From: Alphaproteobacteria bacterium
Lineage (GTDB): Bacteria > Pseudomonadota > Alphaproteobacteria > Reyranellales > Reyranellaceae
Length of the DNA stretch: 64,000 nt
Reading direction: 5' to 3'
Assembly (NCBI GenBank): GCA_016870115.1
Contig: VGCH01000003.1
Coordinates: 166,364-230,363 of the forward strand
The position numbers were made by a program, and so were the translations under genes. Below, one piece after another: positions 1,847 through 50,815 of this stretch. The notes below the pieces were generated by a model. That model was not told the origin of the DNA. It worked only from the letters and a program-made list of their open reading frames with translations, and made no database searches. Numbering within the stretch: position 1 is the stretch's first letter; the number at the start of each line of letters is the position of its first letter.

Positions 1847-3139
1847 ATGGCGAACGTGGCAGTGGTCGGCGCCCAATGGGGCGACGAAGGCAAGGGCAAG
1901 ATCGTCGACTGGCTGAGTGAGCGCGCCGAGGTCGTCGTGCGCTTCCAGGGCGGCCACAATGCCGGCCACACGCTGGTGATCGGTAACCAGACCTACAAGC
2001 TGGCGCTGCTGCCGTCGGGCGTCGTGCGCAAGGGCAAGCTGTCGGTGATCGGCAACGGCGTCGTCGTCGATCCGTGGCATCTGCTGGACGAGATCAAGCG
2101 CGTCGAGGCGCAGGGCGTAACCGTGACACCCGCGACGCTCAAGATCGCCAACCATGCCGTGCTGATCCTGCCGCTGCATCGCGATCTCGATGGCTGGCGC
2201 GAGGACGTTCCGGGCACGATCCGCATCGGCACGACGCGGCGCGGCATCGGGCCCGCCTACGAGGACAAGGTCGGACGGCGCGCCATCCGCGTCGGCGATC
2301 TCGGCGAGCCCGACACGCTCGTCGCCAAGGTGAACACCCTCCTCGCCCACCACAACGCGTTGCGTCAGGGCCTCGGCCGCGCGCCGGTCGATGCCGGCCA
2401 GCTCACGGCCGAGCTGCTCGCACTCGCGCCGAAGATCCTGCCCTTCGCCGAGGACGTGTGGGAGCGGCTCGACGGGCTGCGCGCCGCCGGCAAGCGCATC
2501 CTGTTCGAGGGCGCACAGGCGACCATGCTCGACATCGATCATGGCACCTATCCCTATGTCACCTCGTCCAACACGGTGGCGGCGCAGGCCATGATCGGCA
2601 GCGGACTCGGCAACGGCTCGGTCGGCTACGTGCTGGGCATCGCCAAGGCCTACACCACGCGCGTCGGCGACGGTCCGTTCCCGACCGAGCTCACCGATGA
2701 GATCGGCAAGGGGCTGGGCACGCGCGGCAACGAGTTCGGCACCAACACCGGGCGGCCGCGGCGCTGCGGCTGGTTCGACGCGGTGATGGTGCGCCAGGCG
2801 GTCAAGCTGAATGGGATCGACGGCATCGCGCTCACCAAGCTCGATGTGCTGGACGGCGTCGAAGAGATCAAGGTGTGCGTGGGCTACGAGCTCGACGGCA
2901 AGCGGATCGAGCGCTTCCCCTTCACGATGTGCGCGCAGGCAAGGCTGAAGCCGATCTACGAGAGCTTCGAGGGTTGGAGCGACAGCACCCGGGGCGCGCG
3001 TTCGTTCGGCGCGTTGCCGGCGACCTGCATCAAGTACGTGCGGCGCGTTGAGGAGTTGATCGGCTGCCCGGTGTCACTGGTCAGCACATCGCCGGAGCGC
3101 GAGGACACGATCCTCATGACGGATCCGTTCCGGGACTAG
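1847..3139 (+). CDS. purA: Adenylosuccinate synthetase
   Basis: The 430-residue protein is a full-length PurA, which makes adenylosuccinate from IMP, aspartate and GTP, the first committed step to AMP. The N-terminal GTP/IMP loop QWGDEGKGK lies at residues 10-18, the [10 protein letters not shown] block near 35-44, the [14 protein letters not shown] segment near 126, and the [13 protein letters not shown] signature near 302. The ATG is preceded by only 27 bases after hisZ. No truncation or missing catalytic residue is seen. The enzyme is cytosolic and housekeeping. Confidence 0.97.
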
Positions 3140-3210
3140 AGCGCCTCCGATGCCTCGCTCGTCGGCTCTCTGACGCAGCGGATTCCATCCGGACCGCAAA
3201 GACTCCGGAG

Positions 3211-4050
3211 TCAGTCCAGCGCCGCCACCAGGGCCCACGCGCGATCGAGATAGGTCGCGGCATGGGCGGCATAGTCGGCGCCCGGCGTCGCGAGATGGCG
3301 CGCCGACACCAGCGCCCAGAGTCCTTCGCGCAAGGCGCTCGCCGCCTTCATCGCGGCATAGGCGCGACGCAACGGCCCGTCGGGCGGACCGCCGAAGTAG
3401 AGTTCGAGCAATCACAGGTCGTCGGCGGGCCCCAGCGCGCCGTTCGCCGCGACATTGGCGAGGTCGAATAGCGGCGAGCCGAACCCGGCATACTCCCAGT
3501 CGATCAGCCAGAGCCGGGCGCCATCGTCGATCAGGTTGCCCGGAAGCAGGTCGTTGTGCGCGAACACCGTCGGCATCGCGATCTGCATCGCTTCGAGTCG
3601 GTCGGCGATCGGGCCGTACTCCGCGTCGAGCCCCAGCAACCCGGCATAGTCGCGCACCACATGGAACGCCCAGAAAGCGTTGATTGGTCCGCGCACGCGA
3701 CGCCCGACATCGGCATGGCAGCGGCGCAACAGCCCTACCACTCGCACAAGATGACGTGAGAAATCGGCTTCTTCGAAGGTCCGCCCCTCGATGAAGCGAA
3801 ACACACTGAGGCCAGCCTCGCGATGGACCGGCTCCGGCGAGAGTCCGGCTTCGAACGCCGCCTGTGACGCGGCGTGCTCGCGGTCGCGAAAGACATGATG
3901 GACCGGGATGTCCTCGCCCAGCCGCACCACGAAGCGCGTGCCCGCGTCGCGCACGACGAAGGATAGATTGCTCAGCCCGCCCTTCAGCGGTTCCGGCTCG
4001 ACCGGCCCGCGCCAGAGAGAGCGCGCGAACGCGATATCAGCGGGCGTCAC
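3211..4050 (-). pseudogene. Choline/aminoglycoside kinase-like phosphotransferase with an in-frame TGA
   Basis: Read from a GTG at 4050 the frame encodes a 279-codon phosphotransferase. The kinase core is intact: a GGLSNLSFVV nucleotide-binding strand, FAHNDLLPGNL with the catalytic Asp and Asn, and the metal-binding LIDWEYAG. At 3412-3414 a TGA stops translation after GPADDL. The same frame then continues for 65 codons (LLELYFGGPPDG to the stop at 3211) with sequence that looks like the family's C-terminal helical region. The start overlaps the end of the upstream DUF962-like gene by 14 bases, so the two are coupled. It may yield a truncated but catalytically complete protein, or be a recent pseudogene or an assembly error. 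The substrate is unknown; the choline/ethanolamine kinase branch is the best guess. Confidence 0.75.
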
Positions 4051-4384
4051 GCAGCGCCCTCGCCCAGCCGCCCGACAGCAGGAAGCGCGGGAAGGTGATG
4101 AACTGCTCGACCGTGAAGCGGCTGATGAAGTCGAGCGGCCCCTCGAACGGCACCTGCGCCTCGCGCTCACGCTGATGGCCTTGCCCCTGCGCCAGCAGCG
4201 CGGCCAGCCAAAGCGCAAGGCCGGCCAGTACCGGGCCGGCGGCGCCGCGCAGCAACGCAACCACCAGCAACGCCGTGCCCGCCCAGAACAGCGGCACCGT
4301 AAGAATGTGCAGGAGCAGGTTCACGCGGTCGCGGTGTCCGCCGGGGTAGAGCGACCATTGCCAGTCCAGCAAACCCTTCCGCAT
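4037..4384 (-). CDS. Small membrane protein resembling the DUF962/Mpo1 family
   Basis: This 115-residue protein has two hydrophobic stretches near residues 26-46 and 48-66. The first is preceded by YPGGHRDRVNLLLH, whose His and Asn residues resemble the metal-binding His pattern of Mpo1-like DUF962 proteins (dioxygenases of 2-hydroxy fatty acids in yeast). The C-terminal EQFITFPRFLLSGGW also fits that family loosely. The gene is coupled to the interrupted kinase gene downstream by a 14-base overlap. Family assignment is moderate; an enzymatic role here is inference. Confidence 0.65.
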   Translation of the reverse strand: MRKGLLDWQWSLYPGGHRDRVNLLLHILTVPLFWAGTALLVVALLRGAAGPVLAGLALWLAALLAQGQGHQREREAQVPFEGPLDFISRFTVEQFITFPRFLLSGGWARALRDAR

Positions 4385-4449
4385 CGCGACGCTCCTCCCC
4401 TGCCGGCGGGCGGTTTATGCTCTAGCCTCTCGGCAGACAGGAGTGTGCC

Positions 4450-6123
4450 ATGCCCGATGCCCGCGTTGCCAACACGATCACCGGCCGCAGCGCCTTTCTC
4501 GCCGTCCTGAAGGACGAAGGCATCACCAAGATGTTCGGCAATCCCGGGACGACCGAGTTGCCGATCATGCATGCGCTCACCGAGCAGAGCGATGTCGGCT
4601 ACGTGCTGGGTTTGCAGGAAGCCATCGTGATCGCGATGGCCGACGGGTACGCTCGCGCATCAGGCAAGCTGGTGTCGTGCAACGTCCACGTGGCGCCCGG
4701 CCTCGGCAACGCCATCGGCGCGATCTACACCGCCCACGTGTCCGGAACGCCGATGATTGTGACCGCGGGCCAGCAGGAACAGGGACACGGTCTCACCGAG
4801 CCGCTGCTCTATGCCCCGCTGGTGCCGATCGCCCAGCCGGTCGTGAAATGGGCGACCGAGGTCACGCGCATCGAGGACTTGCCGCGCATCCTGCGCCGCG
4901 CCGCCAAGATCGCGATGACGGCGCCGACCGGCCCGGTGTTCATCTCGCTGCCGGGCGACATCCTGAACAACGAGGCCGCGCTCGATCTCGGCGAGGCGAC
5001 GCGCGTCGACACGGCCGTGCGCCCGAGCGATCAGGCGCTGGAAAAACTCGCGCGCCGGCTGCTTGCCGCCCGCAATCCGGTGATCCTGGCCGGCCACGAG
5101 ATCGCGACGTCCGACGCGTTCAACGAGGCAGCGGCGCTCGCGACAACGCTCGGCGCGCCGGTCTATCAGCAGACCGTGGGCTACGGCGCGCATTTCCCGT
5201 CGGAGCACCCCGCCTTCATCACCGCGCTCGGCCGCGATCAGAAGGCCGTGCGAGCGGCGCTGGCGGACTATGACTTCATGTTCTGTGTCGGATCGGACGT
5301 GCTCAAGATGTCGGTCTGGAGCGACGTCGAACCGCTGCCGCCGGGCCTCAAGGTTGGCATGCTGGGCTTGCGCGACTGGGAGATGGGCAAGAACTTCCCG
5401 GCCGAAATCGCCCTGCGCGCCGATGTGAAGGAGACCCTGGCGGCGCTGGTGCCGCTGCTCCAGCGTCTGGGCGGCGAGGCGCTGGCGACGCGGGCCAAGG
5501 CATCGCTGGCGGCGCTCGCGCCCCGCAACTGGTCGACCCGCCGGGCCAAGCGTCGCGCCGAGACCGTGCCGCGCGCGGTCGAGACGCCGCTGCCGGCCGA
5601 GTGGGTCATGATGCGGCTGAGTGAGCGCCTGCCTGCCGACGCGGTGATCGTCGATGAAGGCATCACCAGCTCGAACGCGCTCCTGAGCCATTTCGCGTTC
5701 CGCGACCGCAACGCCTTCTTTGGCAATGTGAGCGGCGGCATCGGTTGGGGCATCGCGGCGGCGGTGGGCGTGCAGGTCGCACTCCCCGAGCGGCGCGTCG
5801 TCGCGACCATCGGCGATGGCAGCGCGATGTACTCCATCCAGGCGATCTGGACGGCCGCGCACCTCAAGCTGCCGACGATCTTCCTGATCGCCAACAACGG
5901 CGGCTACCAGATCCTGAAGAATCGGCTCAAGGCCTATCACGGCAACGACCGGCCGATCGGCATGGACTTCAAGGATCCGTCGATCGACGCCAGCCAGATC
6001 GCCCGCGGCTTCGGCCTGCCCGCCGAGCGCGTCGACAGCGCCGAAGGCTTCGACGCCGCGCTGACGCGCGCGCTCGCCCGCACCGACGGCCCCAGCCTGA
6101 TCGAGGTCATGGTCCGGAGCTAG
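4450..6123 (+). CDS. ThDP-dependent enzyme, benzoylformate decarboxylase-like
   Basis: The 557-residue protein has the three-domain layout of acetolactate synthase-like enzymes. GNPGTTELP (30-38), the ThDP-activating Glu57 in LGLQEAIV, and NVHVAPGLGNA with His80 line up with the active-site blocks of benzoylformate decarboxylase. The GDGSAMYS...NN diphosphate/metal motif is near 455-480. The active-site Ser of BFD in that first block is Thr here, so the substrate may be another 2-keto acid. The flanking genes point the other way and give no clear pathway. Acetolactate synthase proper is less likely because no small subunit is present. Confidence 0.8.
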   Translation: MPDARVANTITGRSAFLAVLKDEGITKMFGNPGTTELPIMHALTEQSDVGYVLGLQEAIVIAMADGYARASGKLVSCNVHVAPGLGNAIGAIYTAHVSGTPMIVTAGQQEQGHGLTEPLLYAPLVPIAQPVVKWATEVTRIEDLPRILRRAAKIAMTAPTGPVFISLPGDILNNEAALDLGEATRVDTAVRPSDQALEKLARRLLAARNPVILAGHEIATSDAFNEAAALATTLGAPVYQQTVGYGAHFPSEHPAFITALGRDQKAVRAALADYDFMFCVGSDVLKMSVWSDVEPLPPGLKVGMLGLRDWEMGKNFPAEIALRADVKETLAALVPLLQRLGGEALATRAKASLAALAPRNWSTRRAKRRAETVPRAVETPLPAEWVMMRLSERLPADAVIVDEGITSSNALLSHFAFRDRNAFFGNVSGGIGWGIAAAVGVQVALPERRVVATIGDGSAMYSIQAIWTAAHLKLPTIFLIANNGGYQILKNRLKAYHGNDRPIGMDFKDPSIDASQIARGFGLPAERVDSAEGFDAALTRALARTDGPSLIEVMVRS

Positions 6124-6231
6124 AAGGCCCCGATGTCGATCGGTCTCAACGCGCTGGGACAGGTGGCGTGGCGGTGCGCGACGCGGACCTGCCGGCTGTC
6201 ACAGCAGACCCCGCTCTCCTGCTGACGCGCC

Positions 6232-7083
6232 TCAGTCCGCGGCCTTGTCGTGCTTCTTGATCGCGGGCATCACGCCGCCTGGGTCGACCGAGCGGCCGTG
6301 CGCCAGCCAGTTGTGGGCATGAGCGAGGTGGTGCAGCGCGAACGAGGTCTGCATGGCGCTGACGCGGCCTTGCACATCCTGGGCGCTGTTCACCGCCTGC
6401 TTCACGAGCCGGAGCGCGAACAAGGGCTTCTGGGCGATGCGCCCGGCCATGGCGAGGCCGAAACTCTCAAGCTCGGCGCGCGGCACCACATGGTTCAGCA
6501 TGCCCAGCCGATGCGCCTCGCGCGCGCCGATCCAGTCGGCGGTGAAGAGGAATTCCTTGGCCTTGCGCACCCCCATCTCCCAGGGATGGGCGAAGAACTC
6601 GGCGCCGCCGACGCCCATCGCCACCGAGTGATCGAGGAATTCGGCGTCCTCGCTCGCGATCACGATGTCGCACGGCCACATCAGCATCAGCCCGCCGATC
6701 ATCACCTTGCCGTGGACCAGCGCCATCGTGGGCTTGGGAATGTTCCGCCAGCGCTCGCTGAAGCCGAGATAGATCTCCTGCTCGCGCGCGAACTGCGCCT
6801 CCGCGCCCGGCTTGCCGAAGCCGCCCCAAGTCGACACGGTCGCGTGCTTTCGCATGTTGCCGTGCGCGTCGACCTCGCGCAGATCGTGGCCGGAGGAAAA
6901 GTGCGGCCCGTTGGCCGACAGCACGATCACCTTCACCTCGTCGTCGTGGGCGGCACGATCGAAGGCGTCGTTCAGCGCGTAGAGGAACGCCGTGTCCTGG
7001 GCGTTGCGCGTCTCGGGCCGGTTCAGGACGATGCGGGCGATGCCCGGCATCGGCGTGTCGTAGAGGATCGTCTCGTTGGTCAT
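6232..7083 (-). CDS. Enoyl-CoA hydratase/isomerase family protein
   Basis: This 283-residue crotonase-fold protein has LSANGPHFSSGHDL near residues 60-72, which forms the first half of the oxyanion hole, and VHGKVMIGGLMLMWPCDIVIAS near 125-145 for the second half. A C-terminal helical segment follows. Such enzymes act on acyl-CoA thioesters as hydratases, isomerases or hydrolases. No other beta-oxidation gene is adjacent, so the substrate is not predictable. The gene ends convergently with the ThDP-enzyme gene and lies just after rpoH on the same strand, with 46 bases between. Confidence 0.88.
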   Translation of the reverse strand: MTNETILYDTPMPGIARIVLNRPETRNAQDTAFLYALNDAFDRAAHDDEVKVIVLSANGPHFSSGHDLREVDAHGNMRKHATVSTWGGFGKPGAEAQFAREQEIYLGFSERWRNIPKPTMALVHGKVMIGGLMLMWPCDIVIASEDAEFLDHSVAMGVGGAEFFAHPWEMGVRKAKEFLFTADWIGAREAHRLGMLNHVVPRAELESFGLAMAGRIAQKPLFALRLVKQAVNSAQDVQGRVSAMQTSFALHHLAHAHNWLAHGRSVDPGGVMPAIKKHDKAAD

Positions 7084-10575: not shown

Positions 10576-12906
10576 ATGCCGCCCGCACGCACCCTGACCA
10601 TGGCCCATTGGGGCACCTACGAGGTCGAGTATGACGACCGGGGCGCCGCCGCGAAGCTGCATCCCTTCGCGCGCGACCCCGATCCTTCGCCGATCGGCCT
10701 GCACATGCTGTCCGACGAGGTGACGCGACTGCGCGTGCGCCGGCCCTCGATCCGCCGAAGCTGGCTGGAGCACGGCCCCGGCGCCGCGCCGGAGGCGCGC
10801 GGTCACGAGGCGTTCGTCGAGGTTCCGTGGGACGAGGCCGAAGAGCTTGTCGCGCGCGAGCTGGACCGGGTGCGGACCGCACACGGCAATCGGGCGATCT
10901 TCGGCGGCTCCTACGGCTGGTCGAGCGCGGGTCGCTTCCACCACGCCCAGAGTCAGGTCCACCGGTTCCTGAACAGTCTGGGCGGCTATGTGCGCCACCA
11001 GGATTCCTATTCGCTGGGCGCCGCGCGCGTGCTGATGCCGCATATCGTGGCCTCGATGGAAGAGCTGATGGCCGCGCACACCAGTTGGGATGTGCTGGCT
11101 CGCGACTGCAAACTGTTCGTCAGCTTCGGCGGCGTGCCGCACAAGAACGCGCAGATCAACGCCGGGGGCGCCACGATTCACCACGTGAAGGCGGGACTGC
11201 GCGCGATGCACAGCGCCGGCGCGCGCTTCGTGAACGTGACGCCGACTGCCGACGATCTCGATACCGGCGGACCGGTCGAATGGCTGGCGATCCGGCCCAA
11301 CACCGACGCCGCGATGTTGCTCGCGCTCGCCCACACGCTGGTGGCGGAGGATCTCCACGACCGCGCTTTCCTAGCGCGATGCACCGTCGGCTTCGACAAG
11401 TTCCGCCCCTATCTGATGGGCGAGACCGACGGCCAGCCCAAGGATGCAGCCTGGGCCTCGGCGATCTGCGGCATCCCGGCCGCGCGCATCGTGAGCCTCG
11501 CGCGCGAGATGGCGGCAACCCGCACCATGATCACCATCGGCTGGTCGCTGCAGCGCTCGCACCATGGCGAGCAGCCCTTCTGGGCGCTGGTGACGCTCGC
11601 TTGCCTGCTTGGCCAGATCGGCCTGCCGGGTGGCGGCTTCGGCTGCGGCTATGGCCCGGTCAACCTGATGGGCAGCGGTGCGGCGCGCCATTCCGGCCCG
11701 ACCCTGCCGCAGGGCGTGAACAAGGTTGCCGACTTCATTCCGGTGGCCCGCTTCTGCGACATGCTGCTGCGACCGGGTGACGGCTTCGACTACAACGGCA
11801 AGCGCCACGCCTATCCGGACATCCGGCTGATCTACTGGGCCGGCGGCAATCCGTTCCACCACCACCAGGACCTCAATCGCCTGCGCCAGGCCTGGCGCAA
11901 GCCCGAGACAATCGTGGTGCACGAACAGTTCTGGACGCCTGCGGCGCACATGGCCGATATCGTGCTGCCCGCCACCACCACGCTTGAGCGCGACGATATC
12001 GGCTACGGCACGCGCGAGCCCTTCATGATCGCGATGAAGCGCGCGCGGCCGCCGGTCGGCGAGGCGCGCGACGACTACACGATCTTCGCCGGCATCGCGC
12101 GCCGGCTGGGCGCGGGGGACGCCTATACCGAAGGCCGCGACGCGGGCCAGTGGCTCCGCCATCTCTACGAGGAGGCACGCCAGAAGTCGGCCCGCAGCGG
12201 CGTCGCCCTGCCCGCGTTCGACGATTTCTGGCAGATCGGGCTCGCCGAGACGGCGCCGCCCGCCGAGCCGCCGGTCATGCTGGCGGCGTTCCGCGGCGAC
12301 CCAGCCGCGCATCCCCTCAAGACACCGTCGGGACGGATCGAGATCTGGTCCGAAAAGATCGCGTCCTTCGGCTACGAGGATTGCCCGCCGCATGCCTGTT
12401 GGCTGGAGCCCGCGGAGTGGCTGGGCTCACCGCAGGCGGCACGCTATCCGCTGCACATGCTGTCGGATCAGCCGGCCGACAAGCTGCACAGCCAGCTCGA
12501 CCATAGCCCGCACGCGCGCGCCACCAAGGTCCGCGGCCGTCAGCCCGCTACCATCCATCCCGACGACGCCGCCGCGCGCGGCATCGCGGACGGCGACACG
12601 ATCCGCATCCACAACGAGCGCGGCGCCTGCCTCGCCGGCGCGCGACTGAGCGACCGCATTCGTCGCGGCGTGATCCGGCTCTCGACCGGTGCCTGGTTCG
12701 ATCCCGAGCAGTCGGGCTCCAACCGGCCGCTCGAGAAGCATGGCAATCCCAACGCGCTCACGCTCGATATCGGCGCCTCGAAACTGAGCCAGGGCTGCAT
12801 CGCCCAGACCTGCCTCGTGGAGATCGAGCGCCTCGATGCGCCTGTTCCCGCCGTGACCGCGCACCGTCTCCCGGAGTTCGCCCCCCGCTCCGGCGCGGCG
12901 TCCTGA
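10576..12906 (+). CDS. bisC: Molybdopterin oxidoreductase, biotin/DMSO/TMAO sulfoxide reductase type
   Basis: The 776-residue protein is a DMSO reductase-family enzyme. The molybdenum-ligand Ser lies in GGSYGWSSAGRFHHAQ near residues 110-125, the block typical of BisC, TorA and DorA. NPTADDL-like and GWSLQRSHHGEQPFW segments follow, and the C-terminal MPT-binding domain includes LSDQPADKLHSQLD. There is no N-terminal Fe-S Cys cluster and no twin-arginine signal, so it is likely cytosolic like BisC, which reduces biotin sulfoxide and methionine sulfoxide. No membrane c-type cytochrome or TorD-like chaperone gene is adjacent. TorA/DorA function is less likely without export. Confidence 0.85.
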   Translation: MPPARTLTMAHWGTYEVEYDDRGAAAKLHPFARDPDPSPIGLHMLSDEVTRLRVRRPSIRRSWLEHGPGAAPEARGHEAFVEVPWDEAEELVARELDRVRTAHGNRAIFGGSYGWSSAGRFHHAQSQVHRFLNSLGGYVRHQDSYSLGAARVLMPHIVASMEELMAAHTSWDVLARDCKLFVSFGGVPHKNAQINAGGATIHHVKAGLRAMHSAGARFVNVTPTADDLDTGGPVEWLAIRPNTDAAMLLALAHTLVAEDLHDRAFLARCTVGFDKFRPYLMGETDGQPKDAAWASAICGIPAARIVSLAREMAATRTMITIGWSLQRSHHGEQPFWALVTLACLLGQIGLPGGGFGCGYGPVNLMGSGAARHSGPTLPQGVNKVADFIPVARFCDMLLRPGDGFDYNGKRHAYPDIRLIYWAGGNPFHHHQDLNRLRQAWRKPETIVVHEQFWTPAAHMADIVLPATTTLERDDIGYGTREPFMIAMKRARPPVGEARDDYTIFAGIARRLGAGDAYTEGRDAGQWLRHLYEEARQKSARSGVALPAFDDFWQIGLAETAPPAEPPVMLAAFRGDPAAHPLKTPSGRIEIWSEKIASFGYEDCPPHACWLEPAEWLGSPQAARYPLHMLSDQPADKLHSQLDHSPHARATKVRGRQPATIHPDDAAARGIADGDTIRIHNERGACLAGARLSDRIRRGVIRLSTGAWFDPEQSGSNRPLEKHGNPNALTLDIGASKLSQGCIAQTCLVEIERLDAPVPAVTAHRLPEFAPRSGAAS

Positions 12907-29091: not shown

Positions 29092-29316
29092 ATGCACACC
29101 ACGGTCGCGACGCTCTGTCAGCACGCCCGCGAGTTCCAGGAGTTCAGTCGGTTGACGGGGCGACTCTCCCGATTGGCGTTGCGCGGACTCTGCGCGCTGG
29201 GCGGTCTGGGACTTCTCGCCGGCTGCAGCGCGGACTTCACGGCCGCCGATACCGCCTATTTTCAGCCGCCCATCACCACCACCAGCGCGCCGGCTCGGCC
29301 GCTGCGCGAGAGCTGA
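29092..29316 (+). CDS. Short lipoprotein-like leader ORF, possibly the broken N-terminus of the next gene
   Basis: This 74-residue frame has a basic N-terminal part, a hydrophobic core (LALRGLCALGGLGLL) and a lipobox LLAGC near residues 46-50, then a short Pro/Thr-rich tail. It ends at a TGA (29314-29316). The hydrolase gene that follows is in the same frame, and the 13 codons between are GC3-rich and open. The pair may once have been one secreted lipoprotein hydrolase. Alternatively it is an independent small lipoprotein. The function of the short protein alone is unknown. Confidence 0.5.
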   Translation: MHTTVATLCQHAREFQEFSRLTGRLSRLALRGLCALGGLGLLAGCSADFTAADTAYFQPPITTTSAPARPLRES

Positions 29317-29355
29317 TCACTGCACAACAACACCCGCCGCGTCGGACTTGCCGAC

Positions 29356-30120
29356 ATGCGCCCGATGATTCCGGCTTACAACCGCCAGGGCGACTTGCTG
29401 GCCTCCTGGAATCCGCATCCGGGTGGCGTCGCCGGTCGCCCGACCTTCATCGTGACGCATGGTGGTCATGGGTTGGTGCCCACCAACTTCGCCACCGCGC
29501 TTTGGCTGCGCGAGGAGTTCGCGGCCAACGTCCTGGTGCTGGACAGCTACTGGAGCCGGGGCCGGGAAGAAAACTGGGCCACAGGCACGCGCTATGGCGT
29601 GAACATGCGCGTTCTGGATGTCATCGCCGCCGCGCGCTGGCTGCGCGACAGCGCGGGCGTCGATCCCCGCAAGAGCTTTCTTCTGGGCGACAGCCAGGGC
29701 GGCTGGACCGTGCTGCGCAGCTTCACCACTGAGCCGTTCTTCCAGCGCGAGCTCTCGGGCCTGTTGCGGGCCGGGATCGCGCTCTATCCCAATTGCCGCG
29801 TCGATGGCACGACGCACTACCCGCGTCTCGGTCCCTATGCCGGCCCGGTGCTGATCTTCACCGGCGGGCGGGATTCCGCGACCCCCGTCGCCGACTGCGC
29901 GCCGGCGACCCTGACCGCAGCCGCGGACTGGATACATTTTCCGGACGCGACCCATGGCTGGGATGTCGCCAATCGCGGCGCCCATACCCCGGCGGTGGAT
30001 GGTGAATGTGGACGGGCGATGAATGTCTATAATCGCTTTGCCGTCTGCCGCAGCGATGCCGCCACCGCGGCGATGCGCGCGCGCATCAGGAGCTTCGTTC
30101 AGGAACTGGTCGCGCGGTAG
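29356..30120 (+). CDS. Alpha/beta hydrolase, dienelactone hydrolase-like
   Basis: From the ATG at 29356 the 254-residue product shows a full serine-hydrolase triad: Ser in LLGDSQGGW near 113, Asp in FTGGRDSATP near 175, and His in DATHGWD near 200. FIVTHGGHG near 32 forms the oxyanion region. No strong ribosome site precedes this ATG, and the frame is continuous with the lipoprotein leader upstream except for one TGA. It may therefore be the catalytic part of an interrupted exported enzyme. Substrate is unknown. Confidence 0.8.
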   Translation: MRPMIPAYNRQGDLLASWNPHPGGVAGRPTFIVTHGGHGLVPTNFATALWLREEFAANVLVLDSYWSRGREENWATGTRYGVNMRVLDVIAAARWLRDSAGVDPRKSFLLGDSQGGWTVLRSFTTEPFFQRELSGLLRAGIALYPNCRVDGTTHYPRLGPYAGPVLIFTGGRDSATPVADCAPATLTAAADWIHFPDATHGWDVANRGAHTPAVDGECGRAMNVYNRFAVCRSDAATAAMRARIRSFVQELVAR

Positions 30121-50639: not shown

Positions 50640-50815
50640 AAGTGGGGCGGCACCACGATAAGCCGCGGCCGAATAAACCTCCAAGGCCTGCAGATGCAGG
50701 TGGGCACCGTGTAACCAAGGCCACAGCCCTGGTCAGGAACAGTTCCCAGGAAGTCGTCATTGGCCCCGGGGTGTATGTGCGAACCGCGAACCGCGCAGAA
50801 ATCCGCCCCACCCCA
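50640..50815 (-). ncRNA. ssrS: 6S RNA
   Basis: The region between zapA and the cyclo-ligase gene is the canonical 6S RNA site. A perfect 9-bp closing stem (50803-50811 with 50642-50650) brackets about 150 bases holding the expected imperfect long hairpin; the 5' part has TTTCTGCGCGG and the middle CCTGGGAACTGTTCC. 6S RNA mimics an open promoter and holds the housekeeping polymerase in stationary phase. Ends are approximate. Confidence 0.78.

Follow-up and report, generated by a model that had tools for sequence, protein, structure and literature searches.

An In-Frame TGA Between Export Signal and Enzyme in the Gene of a Secreted, Mostly Lipid-Anchored α/β Hydrolase

Introduction

Dienelactone hydrolases and S9 peptidases belong to the α/β hydrolases (PDB 3f67, 9n2w, 1din; PF00326), and the gene described here encodes a protein that shares their fold, their GxSxG motif and the order of the Asp and His residues. 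It lies on the plus strand of the analyzed window, a stretch of 64,000 nucleotides from an alphaproteobacterium of the family Reyranellaceae. In contrast to these enzymes, to which it is 12–22% identical among the best 50 structural matches and with whose Pfam family it scores below the cut-off, the window gene adds an N-terminal linker and a lipobox. Moreover, its reading frame is interrupted by an in-frame TGA, which invites comparison with two further systems. With a nonsense-interrupted bacterial pseudogene it has in common an ancestral continuous frame, a private in-frame stop and relatives that are whole at this position, but it displays neither a second lesion nor relaxed selection, and its loss of function is inferred. 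In Escherichia coli K-12, UGA is reportedly read through in nudL and pheL, which has been ascribed to near-cognate Cys and Trp tRNAs (PMC5373646). These genes resemble the window gene in the UGA and in the open frame beyond it; however, their read-through is attributed mostly to the weak RF2 of K-12 (PMC5373646), whereas RF2 looks efficient in our case, and the part downstream of the stop is here the enzyme itself. Literature searches on premature stops with reinitiation or with signal peptides yielded nothing on this gene, and a search for work on in-frame stops in metagenome-assembled genomes returned no paper.

Results and Discussion

An Interrupted Frame

The initial annotation had described a leader ORF with a lipobox, a TGA, 13 further codons and a hydrolase in one frame, and its coordinates and lengths were all correct: A 74-codon ORF that encodes the lipobox LLAGC extends from ATG 29092 to the TGA at 29314–29316, 13 sense codons follow at 29317–29355 in the frame common to leader and hydrolase, and the 254-codon hydrolase ORF runs from ATG 29356 to its native stop, TAG 30118–30120. 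The annotated leader stands as a lipobox ORF in frame, but its start at ATG 29092 gives way to a more likely one: The leader probably comprises 54 codons from TTG 29152 (29152–29313) rather than 74, because this TTG has an AGGAG upstream and matches the start of the relative L036 within one codon. The AGGAG, a putative Shine–Dalgarno sequence at 29138–29142 that was read directly from the sequence, precedes the TTG by nine bases. Starting from TTG 29152, a signal of 24 residues is positioned ahead of the lipid-carrying Cys (29224–29226), which we count as residue 1 of the mature lipoprotein, and the remainder of the leader forms a linker up to the TGA at mature position 31. With its signal peptide and the lipobox LLAG/C, the window copy is classified as a bacterial lipoprotein. 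The 13 codons SLHNNTRRVGLAD beyond the stop are conserved and form an N-terminal extension of the mature protein in front of the α/β-hydrolase core (29356–30117). Upstream of ATG 29356, bases resembling a ribosome-binding site are no longer than the three-base GGA at 29344–29346, and the corresponding position is internal to the protein in the relatives, where it is mostly Met and otherwise Leu, Val or Phe.

These relatives comprise 29 loci from a scan of the genome_contigs set and one locus (L083) from the viral_contigs set, 30 in all, with identities to the window gene of about 45–86%. L083 was the only relative in the viral set, and a plasmid search with the window gene returned no match. 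Contig ends truncate two loci (L053, L057), which have no upstream DNA and were left out of the leader counts. In 28 of the 28 relatives with upstream DNA the frame is open for at least 63 codons 5′ of the hydrolase (75 codons inspected). The claims that the shared frame exceeds chance, and that leader, linker and hydrolase were once one exported lipoprotein which the TGA split, are thereby borne out: All 28 homologs span both sides of 29314–29316 with uninterrupted signal, linker and hydrolase, and 0/28 are leaderless proteins beginning at the site of ATG 29356, the finding that the initial annotation had named as speaking against it. As judged from these comparisons, the two separate ORFs are one broken gene.

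The proposed lipoprotein nature holds for the window copy and most relatives rather than for the entire family. A strict lipobox pattern is present in 18/28 relatives, and five (L047, L048, L049, L064, L083) have a Cys nearby that falls outside the pattern or position range used; by contrast, L044 and L060–L063 have no lipobox Cys and, when read by eye, apparently carry ordinary cleavable signal peptides. The column of the TGA is aromatic in each of the 23 aligned nearer relatives (6 Trp, 13 Tyr, 4 Phe). The more distant L060–L064 are absent from this alignment; of these, L060, L061 and L063 have Trp in the column, as does L062 by eye, and L064 has Arg. At window 29383–29385 (mature residue 54) the window copy has Arg, and all 23 aligned relatives have Gly. 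The paralog L022 was dismissed as a third case of an internal stop, since the flagged TGA is its native gene end, which the alignment had overrun.

Fold and Active Site of the Hydrolase

An AlphaFold2 model built from 24 of the 31 sequences (pLDDT 89.0, pTM 0.92) has its first core strand at residues 46–50, directly after Met45 (ATG 29356). The best Foldseek match is 3f67 (E 1.2e-10; TM 0.61 by query, 0.74 by target), and dienelactone hydrolases, S9 peptidases and esterases make up the leading matches. Ser157 (codon 29692), Asp217 (29872) and His244 (29953; mature numbering) are invariant in the 24-sequence alignment, and from their motif positions we infer that they constitute the catalytic triad. 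Cys191, Cys225, Cys262 and Cys275 are likewise invariant among the 24 aligned sequences, and the window copy retains both the triad and the four core Cys residues intact. Fold and Ser-Asp-His order, as seen in model and alignment, fit a dienelactone-hydrolase-like α/β hydrolase. PF00326 is matched at E ≤ 0.01 by 21/24 aligned members, and the window protein scores below the curated Pfam cut-off (20.6 vs 22.6 bits); a sequence search of solved structures gave weak matches (best E 0.0013), and the sole NCBIfam row, a ribosomal protein match at chance level, was discarded. The predicted fold suggests an exported hydrolase of the esterase, lactonase or peptidase type.

Selection on Both Sides of the Stop

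A comparison of the window copy with L036 gives dN/dS values of about 0.11 for the hydrolase and 0.29 for the leader; the value of about 0.07 for the 13 codons is noisy. Simple three-way parsimony, with regions summed, assigns missense and synonymous changes in ratios of 30:56 to the window branch, 22:40 to the L036 branch and 34:47 to that of L037, compared with a neutral expectation of about 2.2 to 1; under the same expectation, for which we chose to weight transitions 4 to 1, about 4 nonsense changes would fall on the window branch, where 1 is observed. Relaxed constraint after the stop was not found, the ratio on the window branch being no higher than on the branch of the whole copy L037, and no second lesion beyond the TGA was seen in the window copy. 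Otherwise invariant positions are changed once in the window copy (the Gly to Arg exchange), twice in L036 besides its stop, and 0 to 5 times in other copies. By these measures, selection has maintained leader, 13 codons and hydrolase alike. Because constraint is not relaxed on either side, the TGA would be one of three things: recent, an assembly-level variant or artifact, or tolerated. With no missense excess and no second lesion, error, polymorphism and tolerance are equally compatible with the sequence.

Sparse Distribution and a Second Break

At E ≤ 1e-40 or stricter, and with the query genome or center included in each count, the gene is present in 3/75 genomes of the family of the window genome, in 2/385 genomes sampled across the class, in 1/3 genomes of the family of G231 and in 2/397 genomes of a sample taken from the family to which L037's genome belongs. 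Paralogs within the window genome are 28–33% identical. The two nearest relatives are L037 and L036, the latter located in G231 (same sequence as L068), which belongs to a different family of the same class. When 11 neighboring ORFs of the window were compared with the 30 loci, which are of unequal length, the sole match at E ≤ 1e-8 was a 30% identical aminotransferase in L038. Because the gene is sparse, one of its two nearest relatives resides in another family and no neighbors except this aminotransferase are conserved, horizontal transfer among bacteria of mostly freshwater origin is the probable route of its spread. Within 29152–30117, changes on the window branch are mostly toward G+C (T>C 23, A>G 17) and those on the L036 branch toward A+T (C>T 21, G>A 14), opposite drifts as for a transferred gene that may be adapting to different hosts.

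L036 carries an in-frame TGA of its own at a different site (L036:5604–5606), in the column of an otherwise invariant Trp two residues past the putative catalytic His; L037 is whole. Internal stops thus occur in 2/31 copies (window, 29 genome loci and L083, with L053 and L057 partly visible). Given that the starting gene had been chosen as broken, another break among 30 relatives is only mildly surprising, but its occurrence in so close a relative, one of the nearest two, suggests that this clade can dispense with the gene. Both stops could also be assembly errors. In the window genome and G231 together, 0/122 short-chain dehydrogenase (SDR) matches contain an internal stop within the matched stretches, and there is none among the ABC matches listed (187 matches in all).

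Reading of UGA in the Window Genome

UGA is a working stop in the window genome: Of 12 ORFs in the vicinity of the hydrolase gene that were treated as genes, 7 end in it. In the window genome (G000), two prfB copies encoding RF2 exceed the family cut-off, and a third release-factor match is read as prfA. Both prfB copies are complete (G000:C49:732–1748 and G000:C5:32352–33392) and have an in-frame stop upstream at the usual place of the frameshift. Programmed frameshifting at such a stop is typical of prfB, and the in-frame TGA of the C5 copy, located there, was rejected as a parallel case. The copy on C49 may be foreign. Both RF2 copies read RASGAGGQ, the Ala of which we take to be position 246. 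At position 246, Ala or Ser is canonical and Thr is the weak form of K-12 (PMC5373646); RF2 of the window genome looks to be of the efficient type. The tRNA-Trp(CCA) has an anticodon stem of 5 bp, and a stem of 4 bp has been linked to UGA read-through (PMC13092985). A general model detected 39 tRNAs, a list that is incomplete in that it omits tRNA-Ile and tRNA-Tyr and missed tRNA-Sec; among them, tRNA-Trp occurs with CCA and not with UCA. A genome-wide code with UGA as Trp was dismissed on the presence of RF2, the use of UGA as a terminator in 7 of the 12 ORFs checked, the lack of internal stops in the SDR matches and the ABC matches listed, the lack of a UCA tRNA-Trp among the 39 tRNAs detected, and the 5-bp rather than 4-bp stem. 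A 6S RNA candidate is located on the minus strand of the window at 50646–50804 (46.6 bits vs a gathering score of 46.4).

Origin and Consequence of the TGA

With a probability of roughly 0.62, we favor a recent nonsense mutation at the aromatic linker position 31, by which the anchored hydrolase was lost. This reading builds on four findings that the comparative analysis demonstrates: a frame common to all parts, relatives with no break at this point, a conserved column at the TGA and selection on both sides of it. If the break is real, it would be recent, because the ratio of 30:56 on the window branch compares with 34:47 on that of the whole copy L037 and with about 2.2 to 1 under neutrality. 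The ribosome would start at TTG 29152 and translation would end at the TGA, yielding a preprotein of 54 residues, or 30 after removal of the signal, which would remain as a short lipoprotein stub. The hydrolase core would be made little or not at all because it is without a clear ribosome-binding site of its own, and the anchored enzyme would be lost.

That the TGA is instead an artifact of sequencing, consensus building or strain mixture, with the gene whole in the living population, is unlikely. In its favor, selection appears intact on both sides of the TGA, the family search included a single genome of the genus, and the second complete prfB on C49 could represent a foreign contig within the assembly. 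On the other hand, internal stops are otherwise rare, as the counts given above for SDR matches (matched stretches) and for the listed ABC matches indicate. Following the precedent of nudL and pheL in E. coli K-12 (PMC5373646), a near-cognate tRNA-Trp might also read the UGA at a few per cent, so that a low dose of anchored enzyme is tolerated or used. The aromatic residues of the relatives at this column, the conservation of the 13 codons beyond the stop and the second in-frame TGA of L036 at a Trp position would agree with such leakiness, which we nevertheless consider quite improbable. The stop is directly followed by U, an efficient context for termination, and a UCA tRNA-Trp is lacking among the 39 tRNAs of the incomplete list; moreover, both RF2 copies have the canonical Ala and not the weak Thr of K-12 (PMC5373646), and the tRNA-Trp stem is not of the 4-bp read-through form (PMC13092985). 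The wider idea that leaky in-frame UGA codons at aromatic positions are tolerated or used by this hydrolase, giving a small anchored dose and, here, a stub as well, arises because two lineages carry one each at different sites and the whole protein has stayed under selection; we regard it as highly doubtful.

Scarcely more probable is reinitiation at ATG 29356, 39 bases past the stop, which would produce a leaderless cytosolic hydrolase and thus re-address the enzyme. Short distances after a stop favor reinitiation, and in the model the core is complete from Met45 on, so that the product would keep the core while lacking both export signal and N-terminal extension. However, ATG 29356 is preceded by no more than the GGA, the four invariant Cys residues may point to an oxidizing compartment, and conservation of 13 untranslated codons is not expected unless the event is recent. 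Decoding of the TGA as selenocysteine, finally, has next to no probability, even though the genome is equipped for it: The SelB match reaches 443.8 bits (cut-off 242.25), and the minus strand of locus L126 (G000:C19:1–20000) harbors, at 1472–1567, 2852–5239, 5513–6901 and 12785–12843, a tRNA-Sec, SelB, an ORF beside selB that we read by eye as SelA, and a SECIS_3 element. At the hydrolase TGA, by contrast, no SECIS was matched at the gathering score or at E up to 10, and none of the aligned relatives has Cys in this column. A 5-bp hairpin does occur 3′ of the TGA at a fitting distance, but it was rejected as a SECIS because it is ordinary, with z-values of −0.93, −0.26 and +1.13 for three stretches and hairpins by the same rule at 79% of 3,398 codon positions in the 11 neighboring ORFs.

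Conclusion

A single gene encodes a secreted, mostly lipid-anchored α/β hydrolase whose fold is akin to dienelactone hydrolases and S9 peptidases, and its split is an event of an ordinary type in a sparsely distributed branch of the family. On the preferred reading of a recent nonsense mutation, the gene would be seen here shortly after a stop had arisen between export signal and enzyme, at a point where its relatives are whole. If the stops of the window copy and L036 are both true, the family would offer a small test of simple loss against leaky expression and re-addressing; otherwise the result is a point of annotation, in that the pair of ORFs belongs to one interrupted gene.
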